31,530 nt of DNA from a virus: positions 1-31,530 of the IMG/VR virus record IMGVR_UViG_3300031234_000026, one strand, 5' to 3'. The notes beneath the pieces are model-generated. The model worked only from the letters and a program-made list of their open reading frames with translations, searched no databases and was not told the DNA's origin. Shown here in pieces: positions 13,285-31,460 of this stretch. The number at the start of each line of letters is the position of its first letter. The stretch's first letter is position 1. A program made the translations under genes and the position numbers.

Positions 13285-14516
13285 CCCGACGCCACCTTCC
13301 CCGAGCCGGTCATGATCTGGCCGATGCCTGCGGATGTGAGCGTCATCGTCCCCGTAAAGGGTTGTCCCGCCACGGTGCCAGTGACCGGGATTATCCCTGG
13401 GAAGAGGACCACGACGGTGTCGCCCTGCCGTGCAACGGGAGCGCCGCCACCGGCGAGTTTCACGGACGCCGAGGACGGTCCGACGTTCACCGTCTCCGAC
13501 GCATCTGCCGTCAACGTGAGGGGAATCGACGAACTGTCGAACGACTCGACGAATGCTTGCGCAGGGTCCCCGTCGAGGAACGCGACCGTGCACTGGCTCG
13601 AGAGCTTGTAGAGGGCCGATAGACCCGACATGCCGGGGGCGACCGAGAGCGGCGACACGTCGGGGGCGTCGCTCGCGGACCCGTCCGGGTTCGCCACCGC
13701 CTGCAGGGTGAGCCGTCCGTCGCTTCCCTGGGTGACGATCCGGTATCGGTAACGCTTGATATGCGCGAGTCCGCCGAGCACCCGAACCATGTTCGTAAGG
13801 GATGAGAGGAGGCGGCCGAAGGGTGATGCTCCGCACCACACCTCGATGCGCGTGCCCGCGTGCGTCCACGTCTGCGATACGTCACGGACCGTGAAGGGGC
13901 CATCGAATCGAGGGTCAGTAAGGACGGTGCCCGGGAGTATGAGTGCATCTCCGGAAAGGATCCCGTGCTGATGGATCGGCTCCCACTCGAGCAGCTCGAC
14001 GGACGAGTCAGGCGTAGCGACGGGACGGACGCCGACCTGGGTGGTCCCGTTCGTATCGACGTACCATTGCCGATCGCCGAATACCGATGAGGCAGGCTGG
14101 TCGTCGGTGACGGAGTAATCGATGCCGAGAAGTACCGGAGCGGGGTCGTTCACCGTCTCACCGACCGACGCCGCCATCGAGCTCTCGACCGTGATCGATG
14201 ACACGCCGCCATCCGAATGCCAGGCCTGCGCCGAAGGAAGGTAACTGGCCCATCCGAGACCGCCGACGACGCGCGCCGTCACTGAGGATATGAACCGGCC
14301 CGCGGACGTCGAATCAATCATTCCGATCAGGGTGATCGGTGTCGCTCCGGCCGGAGCAATAGTGATCGTGACCTTGCCGGATGGCACATCCGCGACCGAC
14401 ACGGGACTGCTGTCCGGGTCGAGGTCGACATCCGCAAACCACGAGCCTTTCCACGCCGTCACAAGGCGCACGGACAGGCATCGAATGCCGTTGAGGTCGA
14501 TCGCCGTGTCACTCAT
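13281..14516 (-). CDS. Baseplate hub or tail-tip protein
   Basis: A 411-residue, mostly beta protein. The last 90 residues (T-V-V-V-L-F-P-G-I-I-P-V-T-G and on) may form an OB-like or spike-like domain. In myoviruses this position after tape measure and before wedge proteins holds the hub and spike (Mu gp44 and gp45, P2 gpD and gpV). No motif proves which one, and fusion of two functions is possible. ATG at 14516 overlaps the preceding gene by 8 nt; the frame to 14552 has no better support. Confidence 0.55.
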   Translation of the reverse strand: MSDTAIDLNGIRCLSVRLVTAWKGSWFADVDLDPDSSPVSVADVPSGKVTITIAPAGATPITLIGMIDSTSAGRFISSVTARVVGGLGWASYLPSAQAWHSDGGVSSITVESSMAASVGETVNDPAPVLLGIDYSVTDDQPASSVFGDRQWYVDTNGTTQVGVRPVATPDSSVELLEWEPIHQHGILSGDALILPGTVLTDPRFDGPFTVRDVSQTWTHAGTRIEVWCGASPFGRLLSSLTNMVRVLGGLAHIKRYRYRIVTQGSDGRLTLQAVANPDGSASDAPDVSPLSVAPGMSGLSALYKLSSQCTVAFLDGDPAQAFVESFDSSSIPLTLTADASETVNVGPSSASVKLAGGGAPVARQGDTVVVLFPGIIPVTGTVAGQPFTGTMTLTSAGIGQIMTGSGKVASG

Positions 14517-23346: not shown

Positions 23347-23763
23347 TCAGACAGCCGGGGATTGAACGAGGACGCCCTTTTGTGGGTCGAGTTTCCACAC
23401 GCGACCGGCCGAGGAGTTGCCGGTCGCCTGCACGGAGTGGTCGTCGAGGACGTAGGCATTTGCGTAGAGAGCCGTGACCGCCGCGCCGCCGGTGGCGTTG
23501 TCCAGCCACTGGCACGCAACTTCTCGGTCGAGCTCGACGAGGCAGTAGATGCCGCCCGACGTGCCCCCCGAGTTGTTGACTGACTCGGCGGCGATACCGA
23601 CGGGGATCAGCGTCGTGGACGTCGCATTACCGATGGTCGCCACGTTGTTCGTGGTGTCGAGGTAGATGCGGGCGCCCTGCCACACCTGGACGGCGGCAAT
23701 GGGGAGCGCCTCGTTCTTCAGGGTCTCGAGGATCGGCTGACGCGGTTGGGTGAGAGCGCTCAC
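23347..23763 (-). CDS. Capsid decoration protein (DUF2190-like)
   Basis: A 138-residue protein placed between protease-scaffold and capsid. Features such as V-Q-V-W-Q-G-A-R-I-Y-L and T-L-I-P-V-G-I-A-A-E-S followed by V-E-L-D-R-E fit the small beta-rich cement proteins of phages. GTG at 23763 overlaps the upstream stop as GTGA. It would stabilise the expanded shell from outside. Confidence 0.65.
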   Translation of the reverse strand: MSALTQPRQPILETLKNEALPIAAVQVWQGARIYLDTTNNVATIGNATSTTLIPVGIAAESVNNSGGTSGGIYCLVELDREVACQWLDNATGGAAVTALYANAYVLDDHSVQATGNSSAGRVWKLDPQKGVLVQSPAV

Positions 23764-24404
23764 GATGCACCTCCGGCGGACTGCAGTTTCTTCAGGTGGT
23801 CACGTGCCTGTTCAGGGGTCATCGGGCCCAACGTCAGGGCACCCCCCTCGTGCGAGATACCGGCGAGCGGCGACTCGCCACCCATCCTCGCGGAGATGGC
23901 TTTGGCAGTTTGCTCGTCGACGAAGTCAGCAGAATCGTCGTTGTTCTGTCCTTTGCCGCGCGTGGGTGCGGACGCGAGCGCCATTGCGGGTCGACCGATT
24001 CGCTCCCACGTCTCGCAGGCTGCCTTGACCTCTGCGATCGGAAGCAGGTCTAGCGTCCTTCGCTGCGCCGCCGTGAAGTCAGGACGCGTCGAGTAGAGCG
24101 CGGCGCGGGCCTCGCCCTCTTCCTTGGCGAGCAGCTTCGTCTCCAGAGCATGGTGTGACGCTGCGAGCTTCGCGAACTCCGACGCGCTGACGGTCGCGAC
24201 GAATGCCTTCGCGGACGCCCCCTCTTCCTTCTTCGGTTCCTCGGCGGCGGCTTTGCCCTCTTCCTTCTTCGGTTCCTCCTTGGCCGGCGCCTTCTCCTTG
24301 TCGGTCTCTTCGTCGCCAAAGGCCGCCTCAAAGGCTTTTTCCATCGCTCCGAAAAAGGCCTTGCGAGCCGCCGCCTTCTTATCGACTTTTTCTTCCTCAG
24401 CCAT
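23760..24404 (-). CDS. Nested scaffold protein from internal start
   Basis: Inside the protease gene an ATG at 24404 (Met274) is preceded by AAGGAG 6 nt upstream, a better ribosome site than that of most genes here. It would give a 214-residue protein equal to the C-terminal part of the protease. That part is highly charged with Lys/Glu/Ala repeats and predicted coiled coil, as expected for scaffold. Nested scaffolds (lambda Nu3 inside gpC, Mu gpZ inside gpI) use this layout. Confidence 0.65.
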   Translation of the reverse strand: MAEEEKVDKKAAARKAFFGAMEKAFEAAFGDEETDKEKAPAKEEPKKEEGKAAAEEPKKEEGASAKAFVATVSASEFAKLAASHHALETKLLAKEEGEARAALYSTRPDFTAAQRRTLDLLPIAEVKAACETWERIGRPAMALASAPTRGKGQNNDDSADFVDEQTAKAISARMGGESPLAGISHEGGALTLGPMTPEQARDHLKKLQSAGGAS

Positions 24405-25223
24405 GGTCTTCTCCTTGGCCGGTGCGGCTGGTGCCGTGGCCTTGTCTGCACTCGCCGCCATGGCGAGCACGTCACTCCAGCTTCCAACCGCATCGGCGAG
24501 GCCGACGCTGACAGCCTCTTTGCCGAGGAAGCTCGCGCCCTCGAGCGCACGCAGGTCATCGGCGGTGATGCCTGGACGCATCTCGGCAACGAGGTCGAAA
24601 AATAGGCTCGCGTGGCCGTCGACTCGCTTCTGCACTTCGACGACAGCGTCCTCGGTTGTCGTCGTGTGAGGGTTCCCGTCCAGCTTTCGCGCACCGCTCG
24701 AGACCATCGTGATCGTGAGACCCATCGCGCGATCGGCTGCGGTCGCATCGACGATGGGCTGAAATATTCCAACGCTGCCAACGAGACTCGCGGGCGGCGT
24801 GACGATGACGGACGCGGCTGTCGAGAGCGCGTAGGCCGCGCTGCACGCCATGCCGTCCACAAAGGCAAAGAGAGGCTTCCCCGCGGCGGCGCACGTCGCG
24901 CGGATCTCGCGCGCGCACTCGATCATGCCAAGAACGTCACCGCCTGGGGAGTCGATCCGAAGAACGACCGCCTTCGACGACGATGCCGTGGCGGCCTCTA
25001 CTCGCCTCGCGATGTCGTCGTAGTTGTCCCAGCCTCGACCGTTGTGTTGAACAACGGGCCCCACGATATCCACGACGGCGGCGGATCCGCATTGTTCGAA
25101 GAGCGCGGGAGCACCGTCCGAAGAGATGACGATCATGCCGGGAGCGAAGCTCGCCCCGTAGGCTGAGGCCATGAGCGCCAGTGGGTCCGAGCCCGTAGGG
25201 CGGTAGGGAAGCACTTTCCTCAC
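23760..25223 (-). CDS. S49-family head maturation protease fused to scaffold
   Basis: A 487-residue protein. Residues 45-270 are an SppA-like serine peptidase with the Ser128-Lys180 dyad: Ser in G-M-A-C-S-A-A-Y-A and Lys in S-S-G-A-R-K. R-I-D-S-P-G-G-D at 89-96 is the usual oxyanion-loop signature. Residues 270 to the end are the charged, helical scaffold. It would process head proteins and itself during capsid maturation. GTG at 25223 overlaps the portal stop as GTGA. Confidence 0.85.
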   Translation of the reverse strand: MRKVLPYRPTGSDPLALMASAYGASFAPGMIVISSDGAPALFEQCGSAAVVDIVGPVVQHNGRGWDNYDDIARRVEAATASSSKAVVLRIDSPGGDVLGMIECAREIRATCAAAGKPLFAFVDGMACSAAYALSTAASVIVTPPASLVGSVGIFQPIVDATAADRAMGLTITMVSSGARKLDGNPHTTTTEDAVVEVQKRVDGHASLFFDLVAEMRPGITADDLRALEGASFLGKEAVSVGLADAVGSWSDVLAMAASADKATAPAAPAKEKTMAEEEKVDKKAAARKAFFGAMEKAFEAAFGDEETDKEKAPAKEEPKKEEGKAAAEEPKKEEGASAKAFVATVSASEFAKLAASHHALETKLLAKEEGEARAALYSTRPDFTAAQRRTLDLLPIAEVKAACETWERIGRPAMALASAPTRGKGQNNDDSADFVDEQTAKAISARMGGESPLAGISHEGGALTLGPMTPEQARDHLKKLQSAGGAS

Positions 25224-26653
25224 GCCGCCTCCGAGAGCTTGTCCGTGGAGACGGGCGGCTGGACAGCGCGGGCACGCGCGGCCGCGAGTTCGTCCAGCGA
25301 AGTGTCCTCGTCGTAGCCGTCAACGAGCCCACCTCGGACGGGGACATCGAAGCGGACCAGGATCTCGGTGACGTCGATCTCGATGGCGTTGCCGTCCTTG
25401 TCGGTGGCAGCCGGACGCGTAATCGTCCCGGTCACCTGGTCCACGACCGGGGCGAGAGCGTCTTTCAGGCTCTTGATCGCTCCGGCGGCTCCCGTGAGGG
25501 ACGAAGCGGCGATGACGAGATCCTTCGGCGTGGCCGTGTTCCACTCGACGCACGGGCACGTCGCGATGATGCCGATGCCTTTGCGCTGCGTCGCGTAGGC
25601 TGGGAGGATCTGAGTGTTGACCGTGTAGGCAAGTCCGTCGCCGGTGTCCTGTACGAGGTCGGATCGGATTGACTTGAATGCGTCGGCATTCTGAAAACCC
25701 GCACCGCCGTCCGTCGTGACCGACTGCCCCGAAAGACAGATCGTGTACTCCTTGTCGCTCGTATCGATGACGTGCTGGAAGACCTCGATGCCCGTCCCCT
25801 TTGACTCGATCAGCTTCACGTCCCAACCGACGGGCAGCGAAAAGACGGTGTCAGTGGCCCACGCCATGACGCGTCGGAAGAAGCCCTGACGCTGCTCGTC
25901 GTTCGCGCCGATGGGAGCGATCGCGACGCGGGCGGGGTTCGCGAGCTTGGCCGCGTAATTCGATCGATTGAGGAGCGCGTGCTCCTTGTTGATGAAACTT
26001 CGACCTAGCGCGGGCCAGGCCGCGGACTGCCACGGAGCGATGCGCCCGCCGCTTATGTGGAGCACCCATCGGCCATCGCCCGGGGTGATCGGCAGAAGGC
26101 CCGCCGAGGACTCGTAATACCAGCGGTTCTCCGTCCAGCGGTATTGCAGATACTCGGGGTCGAGGCGGATCAGGATCGGGTAGTCGCGACCCTCCACCGG
26201 CACGAGTTCGCCGACCCCAACACCGAGCACGATGCCGTCGGCCGCAAGCCTTGCGAGCTCACCGGGAGGGCACATGTCATCGAAGACGGACCGCGTCCCG
26301 TTTTTTGCGCGGAGCTCCTGACAAAGCTCGGCATCGCCATAAAACCGCTTCGGCAGCCGAACAAGGCCGGACGTTCGGGTGCCGAGGAGCCCCGCGAGCA
26401 CCCCGTCTCGCTGCATGGCGCGATAGAGTTGAGATGCGCTCGCCAGCATGCCGGCATCGGCCTGACGCTGGGCACGTTCGAGGTCGTCGAGGTACCAGCG
26501 AAGACGAGTCGTCGGCCAAAGCTGAATCTGTCCGCCAAGGTTTTTGCGGATTCGTTCAACGGACTTCGAGTCGATCGTCGGCCCGTTCTTAGGGTCAGCC
26601 GGCTGGTAGGCAGACACACCCAGAAGGGTGCGCGCGATAGCTCGGAGATCCAC
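25220..26653 (-). CDS. Portal protein, Mu gp29-like (DUF935)
   Basis: A 477-residue portal subunit. The N-terminal part with R-W-Y-L-D-D-L-E-R-A and the central G-I-V-L-G-V-G-V-G-E-L, D-P-E-Y-L-Q-Y-R-W and H-I-S-G-G-R-I-A-P-W blocks match the Mu gp29 family. So do T-I-C-L-S-G-Q-S-V-T-T-D-G-G-A-G-F and the helical C-terminus. It would form the dodecameric channel at one head vertex, to which the terminase docks. GTG at 26653 follows a perfect palindrome (26658-26672). Confidence 0.85.
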   Translation of the reverse strand: MDLRAIARTLLGVSAYQPADPKNGPTIDSKSVERIRKNLGGQIQLWPTTRLRWYLDDLERAQRQADAGMLASASQLYRAMQRDGVLAGLLGTRTSGLVRLPKRFYGDAELCQELRAKNGTRSVFDDMCPPGELARLAADGIVLGVGVGELVPVEGRDYPILIRLDPEYLQYRWTENRWYYESSAGLLPITPGDGRWVLHISGGRIAPWQSAAWPALGRSFINKEHALLNRSNYAAKLANPARVAIAPIGANDEQRQGFFRRVMAWATDTVFSLPVGWDVKLIESKGTGIEVFQHVIDTSDKEYTICLSGQSVTTDGGAGFQNADAFKSIRSDLVQDTGDGLAYTVNTQILPAYATQRKGIGIIATCPCVEWNTATPKDLVIAASSLTGAAGAIKSLKDALAPVVDQVTGTITRPAATDKDGNAIEIDVTEILVRFDVPVRGGLVDGYDEDTSLDELAAARARAVQPPVSTDKLSEAA

Positions 26654-26694: not shown

Positions 26695-26913
26695 TCAGCG
26701 CTTAGCCCATTCCCTACATGGTATCCCGATCTCGCGCTCGATGATGATGGCGAGGTCGAGGGAGGGACGCCGTTCCCCACTCGCGAGCTGAGAAACGTGC
26801 TGTCTCGTCACCTTGATCGCCTGAATCATTTCGGCGGTCGATATCTGAAGAACGGCGGCTGCAAATCGTTTGCGACCTTCGGTGATCATCCTGCCAGAGG
26901 CGTCTCGCTTCAC
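26695..26913 (-). CDS. Small XRE-family helix-turn-helix regulator
   Basis: A 72-residue protein. Residues 24-65 (T-A-E-M-I-Q-A-I-K-V-T-R-Q-H-V-S-Q-L-A-S followed by G-E-R-R-P-S-L) form a clear Cro/CI-type helix-turn-helix. GTG at 26913 gives a GTGA overlap with the glycosyltransferase stop, which is why the longer frame to 27030 is not used. A DNA-binding regulator inside the late operon, between cargo genes and portal, is unusual. The palindrome 23-37 bp downstream of its stop is a possible target. Confidence 0.75.
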   Translation of the reverse strand: MKRDASGRMITEGRKRFAAAVLQISTAEMIQAIKVTRQHVSQLASGERRPSLDLAIIIEREIGIPCREWAKR

Positions 26914-27659
26914 GAAACCTTCACCGAGCCGAAGTCGGCGACGCGTCCCCCATACCGGTGACTGCCGTGGTGACCGACCGGAGAGCCGGCGCCGAGGTAC
27001 ATCCAGATCGTGCCGTCGAGATCGCGCCATCGTCGGCAGAACGAGAGGTCCTCGGACAGGAGGTCTCGTCCCGCGGCAATCATCAGCTGAAAGAGGGCGA
27101 CCGTGGGCCGAGGCGGGCGCCCTCGACCCGGCCGATCGTAAAAGAGCAGCTCACTCTCGTAGACGTTGCACATCTTGACGAGCATCGACCGCGTGAGGAG
27201 CGCCATCCCGAGACCTATGGCCCCGATCTGATGCAGCATATGGCGTTCGTCTTCTTCGGCCCGTGGCTCGGGGTCATCGATCATGTGAATCGGGTACGCC
27301 ACGGGAAGGAGCGACGCAGCCGACTGCCTTGGACCCTCGACGAGCATCGCGCGCGCATCGTTTACCTCGGGCAGCTTCCGCCGGTACGGGGCGGCCACGA
27401 AGTCGCGGTCGGCCGCGATCATGCCGTCCACGACTTCGCGTCGGAAGTCGACGTCGGCGTCGATGAACAGCAGGTGACTGCAGTCTGTCTCCAAGAAGTC
27501 TGCGACGTACCGGCTACGGATCCTGACGAGGTCGCCGTCGTACATATCCGTCGGCATGTGAAACTCGTGCTTCGACGAGAGCAGTAGATGCATCATCGAG
27601 AACGCATAAGCCGCGTGGACGGTGCTGTCCTGACTTGGGGTGGCGATGAAGAGTTTCAA
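26910..27659 (-). CDS. GT-A glycosyltransferase
   Basis: A 249-residue protein. The N-terminal half is a nucleotide-sugar-binding fold with the metal-binding D-A-D motif (Asp67-Asp69) in L-L-F-I-D-A-D-V-D-F. The C-terminal half contains E-D-L-S-F-C-R-R-W, a typical acceptor-side E-D motif, and ends in G-S-P-V-G-H-H-G-S-H-R-Y-G-G. Similar proteins occur in several phages. The donor and acceptor are unknown. The start is TTG at 27659, overlapping the upstream stop as TTGA. Confidence 0.75.
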   Translation of the reverse strand: MKLFIATPSQDSTVHAAYAFSMMHLLLSSKHEFHMPTDMYDGDLVRIRSRYVADFLETDCSHLLFIDADVDFRREVVDGMIAADRDFVAAPYRRKLPEVNDARAMLVEGPRQSAASLLPVAYPIHMIDDPEPRAEEDERHMLHQIGAIGLGMALLTRSMLVKMCNVYESELLFYDRPGRGRPPRPTVALFQLMIAAGRDLLSEDLSFCRRWRDLDGTIWMYLGAGSPVGHHGSHRYGGRVADFGSVKVS

Positions 27660-27991
27660 GCGTCCACCTTTCTTTGATCGCTGTCGATAGAGTGACCGAG
27701 CGACCTACGAATCGCATCGCGGAGACGTCGGTTCGCTGCGGCGTAGCTTGCCTTTTGCTCGTCGCGCTCGACCTCGGATGGGTGCGGTCGGTCTGGAAGC
27801 AGAATGTACGGTGGCGAGGCATCTCGCTTCTCCTCGCCTCGGTAGAAGACGTCGATCGACTTTGCGTACGCCACGAGCGCCTCGACGACCGCGTCCGGGA
27901 TCCGGTTCCTCCCTTCGGGCGTGACCTCTTCAAGCTCCGGCGCCGTCGTCGCGCCAACACTACGCAACCGATCCTTCGTAATCTCTCTCAT
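27656..27991 (-). CDS. Hypothetical protein in the cargo block
   Basis: A 111-residue, highly charged protein. Helices are likely at about 38-52 (D-A-V-V-E-A-L-V-A-Y-A-K) and 78-97, joined by a Pro-rich loop (P-D-R-P-H-P). No family is recognised. It lies between two glycosyltransferase-like genes and overlaps both by 4 nt, so it may serve the same process. Confidence 0.55.
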   Translation of the reverse strand: MREITKDRLRSVGATTAPELEEVTPEGRNRIPDAVVEALVAYAKSIDVFYRGEEKRDASPPYILLPDRPHPSEVERDEQKASYAAANRRLRDAIRRSLGHSIDSDQRKVDA

Positions 27992-28812
27992 CGGTCTCCT
28001 CCAATCCCCACGCCCATCGCGCCGAGAGCCAGCTCGGCGACGCAAAGCCTGCACATCCTTGACCCTCTGCCGTTTGAGATCTGCGCTGCACGCGTCGAAC
28101 ACCACGAGCAGATGCCAGGGGGCGGCAGTTCGAGAAGCGGCGGGTTCCCGTTATTCGCCCAGAACAGCGTGCTTTCCAGCTGTAGACTATCGAACCCGTG
28201 CCACGTCACCGTCGCGCGACGGTGCGTGTGGTCGTCATTTCCGTAGGTGCTCTCGACGCTCACGTCGTGGTCGACCAGCGTCGGCACCGGATGAATCGTC
28301 ACGCGACCCGTGTCGACCACAAACGAGTTCAGTAGCTGGTCCTCGTTCTCAGCCTTGACGCGTTCGGGGTAGACGTCCTGCCACGCGATGAACTCTCCGA
28401 GCGTCTCGCGGTCGAGAAGGTACGCCCACCCTACGAGATGGCTCCGCGTCGCGTAAAACCGGTGACCCTGTCGTCGAATCTCTGGGCCGCTCGGGTGCAC
28501 GGCGGAGAGGCCAAGTACGATGCGCTTCGGGAGCGAAGACAGCATCGCGCGAAGGGCCGGCCAGATGTTGGGAGCTACGACGGTGTCGTCTTGGAGCGTG
28601 AGGAAGTAATCGGCCCCGCTCTCGAGTCCCCACTTCCACATTTTTCGGGGCCAAACCTTATTCGACTCACGATCTGAGAATTGACGCCAGTCGATGGCAT
28701 CGCTGCGCAGCTTCTCGCCACCGGGCGCGATCTGCTCCCATAGTCTTCGATAGCTCTCTGCGCGCGCAGGTATCCACGGGCAGTGAGGAAGTCCCAGTGC
28801 AATTGACTTCAT
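27988..28812 (-). CDS. Glycosyltransferase-like protein with C-terminal Cys4 motif
   Basis: A 274-residue protein. L-T-L-Q-D-D-T-V-V (Asp75, Asp76) resembles the metal and nucleotide-sugar site of GT-A enzymes, and E-N-E-D-Q-L-L-N-S-F at about 155-164 the acceptor-side motif. A separate tail carries C235-x2-C238 and C254-x2-C257, a likely zinc ribbon that could bind protein or DNA. The ATG at 28812 has GGAGAG about 4 nt upstream. The family assignment is by motif only. Confidence 0.65.
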   Translation of the reverse strand: MKSIALGLPHCPWIPARAESYRRLWEQIAPGGEKLRSDAIDWRQFSDRESNKVWPRKMWKWGLESGADYFLTLQDDTVVAPNIWPALRAMLSSLPKRIVLGLSAVHPSGPEIRRQGHRFYATRSHLVGWAYLLDRETLGEFIAWQDVYPERVKAENEDQLLNSFVVDTGRVTIHPVPTLVDHDVSVESTYGNDDHTHRRATVTWHGFDSLQLESTLFWANNGNPPLLELPPPGICSWCSTRAAQISNGRGSRMCRLCVAELALGAMGVGIGGDR

Positions 28813-28831
28813 CGTCTCTCCGGGGCGGAGT

Positions 28832-29398
28832 TCACGTCGGCACCCAGTGACGCCATACGACGCCGCGTACTTCGACAGCGTCGCCGAACGTTTCCTTGAC
28901 CGCCTGGACAACACCGGGGAACTCGCGCGACTCGTAGTCGTGGCCCGCGATCATTCCGCCCCGCCTCACCTTCGGAAGCCACGCCGCGATGTCGGCTCGG
29001 ACGTGCTCGTAACGGTGGTCGGCGTCGATGAATACGGCATCGACGCTCCCATCATCGAACGTTTGCGCCACCGTGGTCGACTCCCCCTGCACAATGCGCA
29101 TGTGGCGATCTGGCCCGTGAAGCTCGAGGTTCGTGCGGAAGCTCTCGATCGGGCTGCCGTAGCTCTGCATGCGTTCGAAGACGGACGGATGCAGGTTGTC
29201 GCCTCCCATGTGCTCAGACCACAAGTCGACCGCCACGATGTCGACGCGCCTCCGGACGACCGAACCCAGGAACGCGAACGATCGCCCGTACGCGCAACCC
29301 ACCTCCACGATCGTCCCTCGATCGATGTCGTTCGCCCATTCGCTATACAGGGCGAGCGTGTCCTTGCACGTCCACCCGGGTATGTCCTGCCATGTCAT
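28832..29398 (-). CDS. Class I SAM-dependent methyltransferase
   Basis: A 188-residue protein with the Rossmann-fold motif I E-V-G-C-A-Y-G-R-S (32-40), the ribose-binding acidic Asp58, and F-I-D-A-D-H-R-Y at 123-130. It matches the Methyltransf_24 / macrocin-O-methyltransferase-like group that often modifies sugars. It does not carry the N/D-P-P-Y motif of DNA adenine methylases. Its ATG overlaps the terminase stop as ATGA. Next to two glycosyltransferases, methylation of a sugar is the natural guess. Confidence 0.8.
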   Translation of the reverse strand: MTWQDIPGWTCKDTLALYSEWANDIDRGTIVEVGCAYGRSFAFLGSVVRRRVDIVAVDLWSEHMGGDNLHPSVFERMQSYGSPIESFRTNLELHGPDRHMRIVQGESTTVAQTFDDGSVDAVFIDADHRYEHVRADIAAWLPKVRRGGMIAGHDYESREFPGVVQAVKETFGDAVEVRGVVWRHWVPT

Positions 29399-31002
29399 CG
29401 TCGAAACCCTCCTCCGCTCGCGTAGGGGTCCAGTCCCCGGCCGCGGCCTACTTCGTTTTCGTAAATGTCATTTGACGGTTGCTGCCGCTGGGCATGAGGA
29501 TCGTCGGCCGTCCACCCGCGTTTCTCGTAAACGGCGAGAGCGAGTGCGTCGAAGGTGTCCGGCGAACGACCGATGCGGTCACGGATCTCGCTCTTGGCCG
29601 TCGCGCGAATTCGACCGTCAGGCATTGAGATCCACGTGGGTTCGTAGAGCTCGATCTCTAGCTTGTCGTCCTTGGGGATGGCGCCATCTTGCATCCACCC
29701 ACCAAGCGTCCAGATCAGTTCATCGCGCACGCGTTCGAACTTCGACGGGTCCCGTACATACTTCGACGATGACCGGATCTGGACGACCTCGAACGCGTTG
29801 CCAGGGTCACGTAGACGACGCTCCTCGGCCTCGGAACGAAGCCGGCCAAGGAGCTCGGACCCGATGAGCCCTTCCGCGTCCACGTGAACCGATGGCGTCT
29901 CGCCGCTCTGCCGGTGCTGAGCGATGAACGTTGTCGTCGTCTGGACAATCGCGTCGACGGATTGACCACGAAGCCGAAATACCTGGATGCACTGGTTTCC
30001 CCTCACGGCTGCCCATGCTGTTTCGTCTCCCTTGTCTCCGGGACCGGCAGGGTCAAGCCCGATCACGAGACGACCGGCCGCTTCCTGCGGCGCGAACCGG
30101 AGTTTCGCCTCGTCGATAAGCGCCATTGGGATGCATCGGCCCGTCTCGTTTCGCAGGAACTCCCCGAGCACGCGGACAATGAAGAACGGGTTATCCTCGC
30201 CGCCGTAGTATTGTCTCGCATCCTCAACGCGAGCGGCGTTGACGGTGAACGGGACGACGATACCCGTCTCGCGTTGCCACCGTATGATGTCGAGCGCCGA
30301 GACGTGGAACGTCTGCCACTGATCCCTCAGACGGTTGAACGCCTCGTAGAACGGTCCGGAGCATCGAGTAGGGTTTCCGGTGAGTACGATCGTCCCGCCA
30401 CCCATCGCGTTTCCCGACAATACCTCGGCCTTGTTCGAGGGGAGCGCCGATGCTTCGTCGATGATGAAGAGCATTCGACCGGACAACCCTGCGACCGACT
30501 CGATCTCGCGACCGGTGATGCCACGGATCTCCCTCCCGCCGTCCGTCGACACAAATCCACCCGACGGGGCCTTCGCCAGCACACCATCGACGTCCGTCCC
30601 AAACTCCTTCGCCCGACGGAGCACCGCCGCCAGCTCTCGCCACAGCACCGCCTTCGTCTGGTCTTCGATGGCAGCCGTCACAAACACGCGTGCATCTGGG
30701 AAGCACTCGTAGAACCACATCGCCGACAGAATGGTCGTCAGCGACTTGCCGGCCTTCTGACACGACCGGACCGCGATGCGCGGCGGCTTGTCCCCCCAGA
30801 CCCCAGCGCATACCGCGCGCAAGATCGTCTCTTGGTGGGGCATTAGAACTTGGACACCAAGCCGCTGCTTCGCGTATCCGACCGGGTCCCGATCCCATCG
30901 CTTCAAGGGATAGTCGATGCGGTTACGAACCAGGTTCAGCGCGCGTACCGCCTTCCCGATCTCACCGGCAACAGTGACGGCGCGAGACGTGTTTGCGGTC
31001 AT
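29395..31002 (-). CDS. Large terminase subunit (TerL, Mu gp28-like)
   Basis: A 535-residue packaging motor. The ATPase half has a Walker A variant R-S-C-Q-K-A-G-K-S (79-87), Walker B M-L-F-I-I-D-E-A-S (177-185) and the coupling motif L-T-G-N-P-T (207-212). The RuvC-like nuclease half has Asp317 in I-G-L-D-P-A-G, Asp375 in V-H-V-D-A-E-G and a last Asp in D-T-F-D-A-L-A-L-A-V. It cuts concatemers and pumps DNA into the head through the portal. The ATG at 31002 overlaps the preceding stop as ATGA. Confidence 0.88.
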   Translation of the reverse strand: MTANTSRAVTVAGEIGKAVRALNLVRNRIDYPLKRWDRDPVGYAKQRLGVQVLMPHQETILRAVCAGVWGDKPPRIAVRSCQKAGKSLTTILSAMWFYECFPDARVFVTAAIEDQTKAVLWRELAAVLRRAKEFGTDVDGVLAKAPSGGFVSTDGGREIRGITGREIESVAGLSGRMLFIIDEASALPSNKAEVLSGNAMGGGTIVLTGNPTRCSGPFYEAFNRLRDQWQTFHVSALDIIRWQRETGIVVPFTVNAARVEDARQYYGGEDNPFFIVRVLGEFLRNETGRCIPMALIDEAKLRFAPQEAAGRLVIGLDPAGPGDKGDETAWAAVRGNQCIQVFRLRGQSVDAIVQTTTTFIAQHRQSGETPSVHVDAEGLIGSELLGRLRSEAEERRLRDPGNAFEVVQIRSSSKYVRDPSKFERVRDELIWTLGGWMQDGAIPKDDKLEIELYEPTWISMPDGRIRATAKSEIRDRIGRSPDTFDALALAVYEKRGWTADDPHAQRQQPSNDIYENEVGRGRGLDPYASGGGFRR

Positions 31003-31460
31003 GACCCGTTGAACTCCCTGTCCACGGCCTCGATGCATGCGTCGCACGTGAGGCAGCGCATCAGCCGATCGAGGGCTCGACGAAACGGAGCGCTCCTCGC
31101 AACGGTCGCGTCACTGAGTTCCCCCTCGCCACGATGCTCCCTGAGTTGAGCCAGCGCCTGCCGGTACGTGGACGAAAGGCTGGCGCGGGTGGACATCGAC
31201 TCACCCTTCGCAATGGCGGCGTCGAGCTCGCTCTTCGCACGAGCCGCGTAGAGCTCGCACTCGTGCTCGGTTGAGCCCAGGAGGGCGACGCCCGGGAGCT
31301 CTACCGTAACATTCGCCTCAGGACGCGCCGGTTGGCCCGAAACAGTCAAGGGTGAGTCCGGCGTCTGAAACTTCGTCCTAGGCCCGCTTCCGGCGGAGGA
31401 ACGGTGCTTCCTGGACCTGAGCGTCGACGGCTTCGGGTTCGCGACCGGCAGCCGACCCAT
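30999..31460 (-). CDS. Candidate small terminase subunit or terminase-associated protein
   Basis: A 153-residue protein. The first 50 residues are basic, Ser/Pro-rich and disordered. From about 62 on it is helical and ends with C-x-x-C (L-T-C-D-A-C) near residue 140. It lies directly upstream of TerL with an ATGA overlap, where small terminases reside, but no helix-turn-helix is obvious. The start has no convincing ribosome site. It is the first gene of the late block in the window. Confidence 0.45.
   Translation of the reverse strand: MGRLPVANPKPSTLRSRKHRSSAGSGPRTKFQTPDSPLTVSGQPARPEANVTVELPGVALLGSTEHECELYAARAKSELDAAIAKGESMSTRASLSSTYRQALAQLREHRGEGELSDATVARSAPFRRALDRLMRCLTCDACIEAVDREFNGS

Follow-up and report, generated by a model that had tools for sequence, protein, structure and literature searches.

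Phage-encoded glycosylation of virions has been shown mainly in actinobacteriophages, where it is discussed as a way of evading antibodies. The closest described systems are mycobacteriophage cassettes, whose enzymes are reported, in papers citing Freeman et al. 2023, to act on the capsid and the tail tube (PMC11600133, PMC12363180, PMC11256854). Cluster O phages are described as having three tandem glycosyltransferases (GTs) downstream of an O-methyltransferase, which modify the capsid and the tail tube (PMC11600133). Che8 gp110 and Corndog gp38 are presented as the essential GTs for viral capsid glycosylation (PMC12363180). The Corndog-type phage Dylan, of cluster O, has the gene order TerL, portal, O-methyltransferase, three GTs, prohead protease, major head protein, whereas in Che8 (cluster F1) the genes gp108–gp110 are found at the right genome end, apart from the head genes, with the methyltransferase fused to a GT in gp108. 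The archaeal virus STIV has a GT that is essential to it, A197, whose presumed target is the major coat protein (PMC10551542); this is a single GT, for which no methyltransferase or partner GT is described there.

The locus compared here with these systems belongs to an IMG/VR virus record of 31.5 kb (31,530 nucleotides; hereafter the window), the right half of which is a late gene block, all on the minus strand. The block opens with a TerS-like ORF and TerL, and continues with a methyltransferase (MT), a first glycosyltransferase (GT1), a 111-aa ORF, a second glycosyltransferase (GT2), a 72-aa HTH protein, a Mu-type portal and an S49 protease; past the protease come genes for a structural protein of the virion, the major head protein, the sheath, the tape measure and the baseplate. 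TerL (29395..31047, minus strand; phrog_2, 3.7e-23) likelier starts at the ATG at 31002, which overlaps the previous stop by 4 nt, than at the GTG at 31047. The portal (25220..26653, minus strand; PF06074, 1.1e-34) and the S49-type head maturation protease/scaffold (23760..25223, minus strand; phrog_53, 1.8e-60; PF01343, 1e-23) also overlap by 4 nt, and such overlaps are commonplace in this genome.

Five ORFs lie on the minus strand between TerL and the portal, in the order given by the original prediction, and, as it also stated, the start of MT overlaps the stop of TerL; the overlap is 4 nt. It was also correct that all but one of the junctions are 4-nt overlaps: these are found at TerL/MT, GT1/small ORF, small ORF/GT2 and GT2/HTH, and the only exception among the five, counted from TerL up to the HTH gene, is MT/GT1, with a gap of 19 nt. 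The HTH gene and the portal are separated by 41 nt, and no terminator-like site was found on the minus strand from TerL to the portal start. The small charged protein (27656..27991, minus strand; 111 aa), which overlaps both its neighbours by 4 nt, is an orphan, with no library match over the cut-off and no homologue among the loci searched.

How unusual is this arrangement? Relatives were gathered by scans with portal and TerL alignments, a scan with the single TerL sequence having returned none, and 49 non-redundant loci were compared. The median length of their TerL–portal interval is 205 bp, against 2741 bp in the window; it is longer than 1 kb in two of them only (L107, 1389 bp; L142, 3246 bp), and a GT or MT gene within it was found in none of the 49. 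These relatives bear out the expectation that TerL normally runs straight into the portal. A recent acquisition of the cassette was considered and discarded, its GC content (0.627 vs 0.643) and similar GC3 giving no sign of it. A nucleotide search of phages with the window returned no match.

Set beside Dylan gp32–gp35, the window shares a PF13578 O-methyltransferase followed by tandem GTs within the late head block, as well as the short overlaps, and the last GT of Dylan (gp35, phrog_854 family) is homologous to GT1. There are also differences: Dylan has three GTs between portal and protease, whereas the window has two GTs, together with an orphan gene, in its TerL–portal interval; GT2 comes from another GT-A family; and Dylan is a siphovirus, while the window phage is a myovirus with a Mu-type portal, and the host phylum differs. 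With regard to Che8, GT1 resembles gp110 and MT the C-terminal methyltransferase half of gp108; here, however, the cassette is in the packaging block, and it is GT1 and GT2 that form a fused pair, in the relatives of the window. Judged from these comparisons, the cassette is a diverged relative of those with which phages glycosylate their virions; it differs in its second GT, in the GT1–GT2 fusions of its relatives and in its setting, a new phage group.

MT (28832..29398, minus strand) is a predicted SAM-dependent O-methyltransferase of 188 aa (PF13578, 1.6e-24; RMNT_CmcI, 4e-6). PF13578 is common to MT, Dylan gp32 and Che8 gp108, and in hhalign comparisons the MT profile, built from 12 relatives, matches Dylan gp32 (3e-7) and the C-terminal half of Che8 gp108 (2e-8). 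Among solved structures, the best match of the same profile is PDB 6g7d (1.9e-11), which we take to be the mycobacterial MMP 1-O-methyltransferase MeT1. This enzyme methylates an oligomannoside (PMC9883506). MeT1 is a bacterial enzyme that acts on polysaccharide, whereas MT is a phage protein.

GT1 (27988..28812, minus strand; 274 aa) and GT2 both lack a Pfam match. For GT1, the assignment comes from phrog_854 and from structure searches. Its model has a mean pLDDT of 80, with a core of ∼90, and Foldseek returned GT-A enzymes, including a GT of PBCV-1 described as involved in capsid glycosylation. The motif LQDD, whose catalytic-type aspartates D75 and D76 are invariant in the alignment, is of the D-x-D type. 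The phrog_854 score is 4.6e-6 for the window GT1, 5.4e-12 for the relative in L094 and 1e-99 for Che8 gp110 itself. In the other direction, the GT1 HMM scores 4e-8 against Che8 gp110 and 1e-6 against Dylan gp35, and hhalign gives 6e-8 and 3e-9, respectively, as single-comparison values. The likeness to gp110 is remote, ∼20% identity over ∼145 residues; on these profile matches, GT1 belongs to the phrog_854 family, as a remote homologue of gp110 in Che8 and gp35 in Dylan. GT1 was found neither in isolated phages, by tblastn, nor in bacterial genome contigs.

The original prediction had treated the Cys4 tail of GT1 (28042..28110, minus strand; CxxC-x15-CxxC, Cys 235, 238, 254 and 257) as an extra oddity. 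This putative zinc site recurs in three other GT1-bearing records, L091 (two copies), L093 and L098, and is missing in the GT1::GT2 fusions of L092 and L094 (alignment A4). It stands at the point where GT2 is fused in relatives, a region of low model confidence. A ClpX-type zinc domain was considered for it and rejected, there being no Pfam match over the cut-off.

GT2 (26910..27659, minus strand; 249 aa, TTG start; phrog_1574, 1e-10) is similar to STIV A197. A profile of 71 relatives matches PDB 2c0n, the A197 structure, at 3.4e-7, and the same entry is the top Foldseek match (9e-8) of the GT2 model (pLDDT 89), at 17% identity. In the motif FIDADVD, again of the D-x-D type, D67 and D69 are invariant in the 71 sequences. 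The GT2 profile was compared with Che8 gp109 and Dylan gp33 and matched neither (0.36 and 0.43, respectively). That both glycosyltransferases are GT-A-like, as had been proposed, agrees with their predicted structures; the TM-scores to solved structures are moderate (∼0.4–0.6), so that the models speak for the fold class of GT1 and GT2 but not for donor or linkage.

One question is whether the sugars are destined for DNA. If so, GT1 and GT2 would sugar modified bases of the phage as a defence against restriction, MT would act as a further modifier of base or sugar, and the proximity to TerL would be incidental. The wider GT2 family (25–29% identity) adjoins genes for EndoV, SbcD, SSB, RusA and exonuclease, and its annotated neighbours, in a sample without a distant-gene control, are more often DNA-metabolism than virion genes. 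A GT2 relative lies between gp46 and gp45 in phiM12, a phage of the T4 superfamily, and the same replication cluster holds relatives in Cr30 and OC; from their positions, these proteins may act on DNA. Such neighbourhoods are the main contrary evidence to a virion glycan, and they rule out GT2 by itself as evidence of a virion role. What weight GT2 can lend comes only from the eight GT1-linked GT2s, which form their own clade (support 0.96); its sister, L006, has capsid-region genes on one side and a Mu-like sheath gene on the other. T4-type DNA glucosyltransferases are GT-B enzymes that accompany a base-hydroxymethylating enzyme, whereas both GTs of the window are, by structure search, of the GT-A class, with no T4 AGT/BGT-type match among the matches listed. 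A thymidylate-synthase-type enzyme (PF00303) is absent from the 12 cassette-bearing records, most of which are fragments, and this weakens the case for DNA. Moreover, the known relatives of GT1 are reported to act on virion proteins. All considered, we regard glycosylation of DNA as unlikely.

The glycan cargo is not a peculiarity of the window. The series MT-GT1-(small ORF)-GT2 recurs in ∼10 further uncultured phages, in most cases upstream of TerL; in the scans, MT, GT1 and GT2 co-occur in most of the records with further GT1 genes, and the cassette adjoins TerL or portal in diverged phages. The layouts include MT-MT-GT1::GT2-TerL (L094), MT-GT1::GT2 then TerL (L092), MT-GT1::GT1 then TerL (L160), MT-GT1-epimerase-GT1-GT2 with TerL 7 kb on (L156), GT1-epimerase-MT-GT1-GT2 then TerL and portal (L095), and MT-GT1-GT2-Cpn10 then TerL and portal (L091). 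In L101 the order is epimerase-GT1::GT2 ... MT, TerL, if the contig ends are read across as those of a circularly permuted genome, as we infer; L002 has several MTs, two GT1, Cpn10 and GT2 beside tail genes, and the layouts of L098 and L093 are partial. The fusion GT1::GT2 is a single open frame in three independent contigs (L092, L094 and L101/L181), and therefore the two GTs probably act together. Families, predicted folds, gene order, recurrence, the fusion of GT1 with GT2, and the remote homology to the mycobacteriophage cassette can all be read from sequence.

A nucleotide-sugar epimerase lies inside the cassette of three of these phages (L095, L156 and L101). Such epimerases would also suit enzymes that alter the lipopolysaccharide or another envelope glycan of the host, excluding rival phages or changing the surface of the lysogen; methyltransferase and GT genes together are typical of envelope glycan loci. 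Some members of the lineage are on contigs of Myxococcota MAGs, including a Labilithrix contig of 276 kb; the host group of the lineage is therefore probably Myxococcota, an assignment made via the contigs of relatives, and lysogeny is likely for some members, which again favours a role at the host surface. However, Gtr-type O-antigen operons combine a GtrA flippase with a membrane-anchored GtrB. A GtrA-type flippase (PF04138) was found in none of the 12 records, and no transmembrane segment is predicted in MT, GT1 or GT2; the lack of both flippase and membrane-spanning GTs weakens this alternative. Neither a polymerase nor a ligase was seen in the cassette, and from a position in the late block expression in a lysogen is not expected. 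Modification of the host surface is, in our opinion, improbable.

The best explanation is that the cassette serves to furnish virion proteins, at late times, with an O-methylated glycan, and we consider this probable. MT and GT1 are distantly related to the coat-sugar genes of mycobacterial phages, and therefore the window phage probably does likewise. Of what was originally proposed, glycosylation or methylation of the virion is the role best supported, through the remote homology of GT1 and MT to the Che8/Corndog-type cassettes, while the grouping of the HTH protein with these genes did not stand. MT, GT1 and GT2 would be made from the head-gene transcript, presumably late and together, as soluble cytosolic enzymes. 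One GT would move the first sugar from a host nucleotide sugar, epimerised by phage enzymes in some relatives, to a protein of the head, tail or fibres; the other would extend the glycan, and MT would cap it with a methyl ether. The particle would then carry a short glycan that is O-methylated. The order of enzyme action, the acceptor, the sugar and the benefit to the phage are what we infer.

If this proposal is true, a known trick of virion glycosylation would extend to an unstudied phage group. That a diverged cassette is linked to packaging genes in environmental myoviruses, relatives of which are found in the genomes of Myxococcota, points to an environmental role of greater age. A bolder version, which is conceivable but rather doubtful, is that GT1 and GT2 form a two-enzyme glycan synthase that equips the coat of temperate myoviruses infecting predatory Myxococcota with a methyl-capped oligosaccharide, with the Cys4 tail perhaps docking the GTs that are not fused. 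In that case virion glycosylation would have an earlier origin and a broader spread than the actinobacteriophages where it is documented, and its benefit in these phages could not be the evasion of vertebrate antibodies. In any case, the cassette supplies concrete proteins for testing, and the GT1::GT2 fusions point to an enzyme pair to be assayed jointly.

The fifth gene has a different story. The HTH protein (26695..26913, minus strand; 72 aa, GTG start; HTH_3, 2e-6) had been counted in the cargo as its XRE regulator, and the 4-nt overlap of GT2 with its gene would suit five genes forming one unit with its own regulator. Yet 15 of the 49 relatives, all without a cassette there, have a matching small HTH gene in the TerL–portal interval, and this HTH gene was not seen in the cassettes found elsewhere. 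The gap-located genes have the pattern AVLQxT...GIPxxW in common. In 31 relatives, ORFs upstream of TerL carry a similar HTH at their N-terminus; they are mostly directly before TerL and in other cases up to several kb off. The 72-aa protein aligns over its HTH with both the gap-located and the TerS-located copies, including the GIPxxW end. The fold is a common one and the copies come from an iterated jackhmmer search, so that the position of the genes and their shared ends weigh as much as the E-values. On this combined evidence, the HTH protein is a resident of the TerL–portal interval, with a HTH resembling the DNA-binding domain of TerS-like proteins, and stands outside the glycan cargo; a single five-gene unit is very improbable. 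This reassignment removes a misleading regulatory story. A HigA antitoxin was another candidate for the protein, and it was rejected (TIGR02607, 21.8 bits vs a cut-off of 47.7; neighbours without a toxin match). As for the TerS-like ORF of the window (30999..31460, minus strand; 153 aa), it appears to be without a HTH of its own, and its residues 87–138 weakly match the C-terminal part of the TerS-like ORFs of the relatives (hmmsearch, 6.5e-7 with a single target; hhalign, 5e-4).

In a 4.3-kb contig (L100), the portal, protease and head genes are 99-100% identical to, and essentially the same as, those of the window; judged by these sequences, it is the same phage species. This contig begins inside the portal gene, and the glycan cassette (an O-methyltransferase and the GT-A fold glycosyltransferases GT1 and GT2) lies beyond its reach.

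As for the other relatives, the cassette has variants and neighbors of its own. One ORF with two GT1 domains is found upstream of TerL (L160:6345-8456), and genes for the GroES-like Cpn10 lie within or adjoining the cassette in two loci (L002:3990-4328 and L091:5464-5859). The interval between TerL and portal can take other cargo too, since in L142, where it spans 3.2 kb, it holds an ORF assigned by eye as metallophosphoesterase-like (13478-14266).

The portal alone is inverted with respect to TerL and the protease/capsid genes in 8 of the 49 relatives compared (L092, L094/L140, L141, L142, L143, L144, L145 and L146). Is this an accident of assembly? This is unlikely, because eight different contigs show it.

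Another point concerns the TerS-like ORF preceding TerL (30999-31460, minus strand, 153 aa), which in the window seems to be without the HTH present in most relatives' counterparts, while a separate 72-aa HTH gene (26695-26913, minus strand) is still kept ahead of the portal. This detached protein might supply DNA binding in trans.

GT2-family genes occur in other phages too. In the T4-superfamily phages Cr30, OC and phiM12 (L008, L009 and L010), they sit in the replication cluster, between the gp46/47 and gp45 homologues, and possibly serve an unrecognized DNA modification. In Pelagibacter phage HTVC023P (L005:1-8744), the GT2-family gene adjoins a second glycosyltransferase; 2OG-Fe(II) oxygenases are encoded nearby, as is a tail protein.
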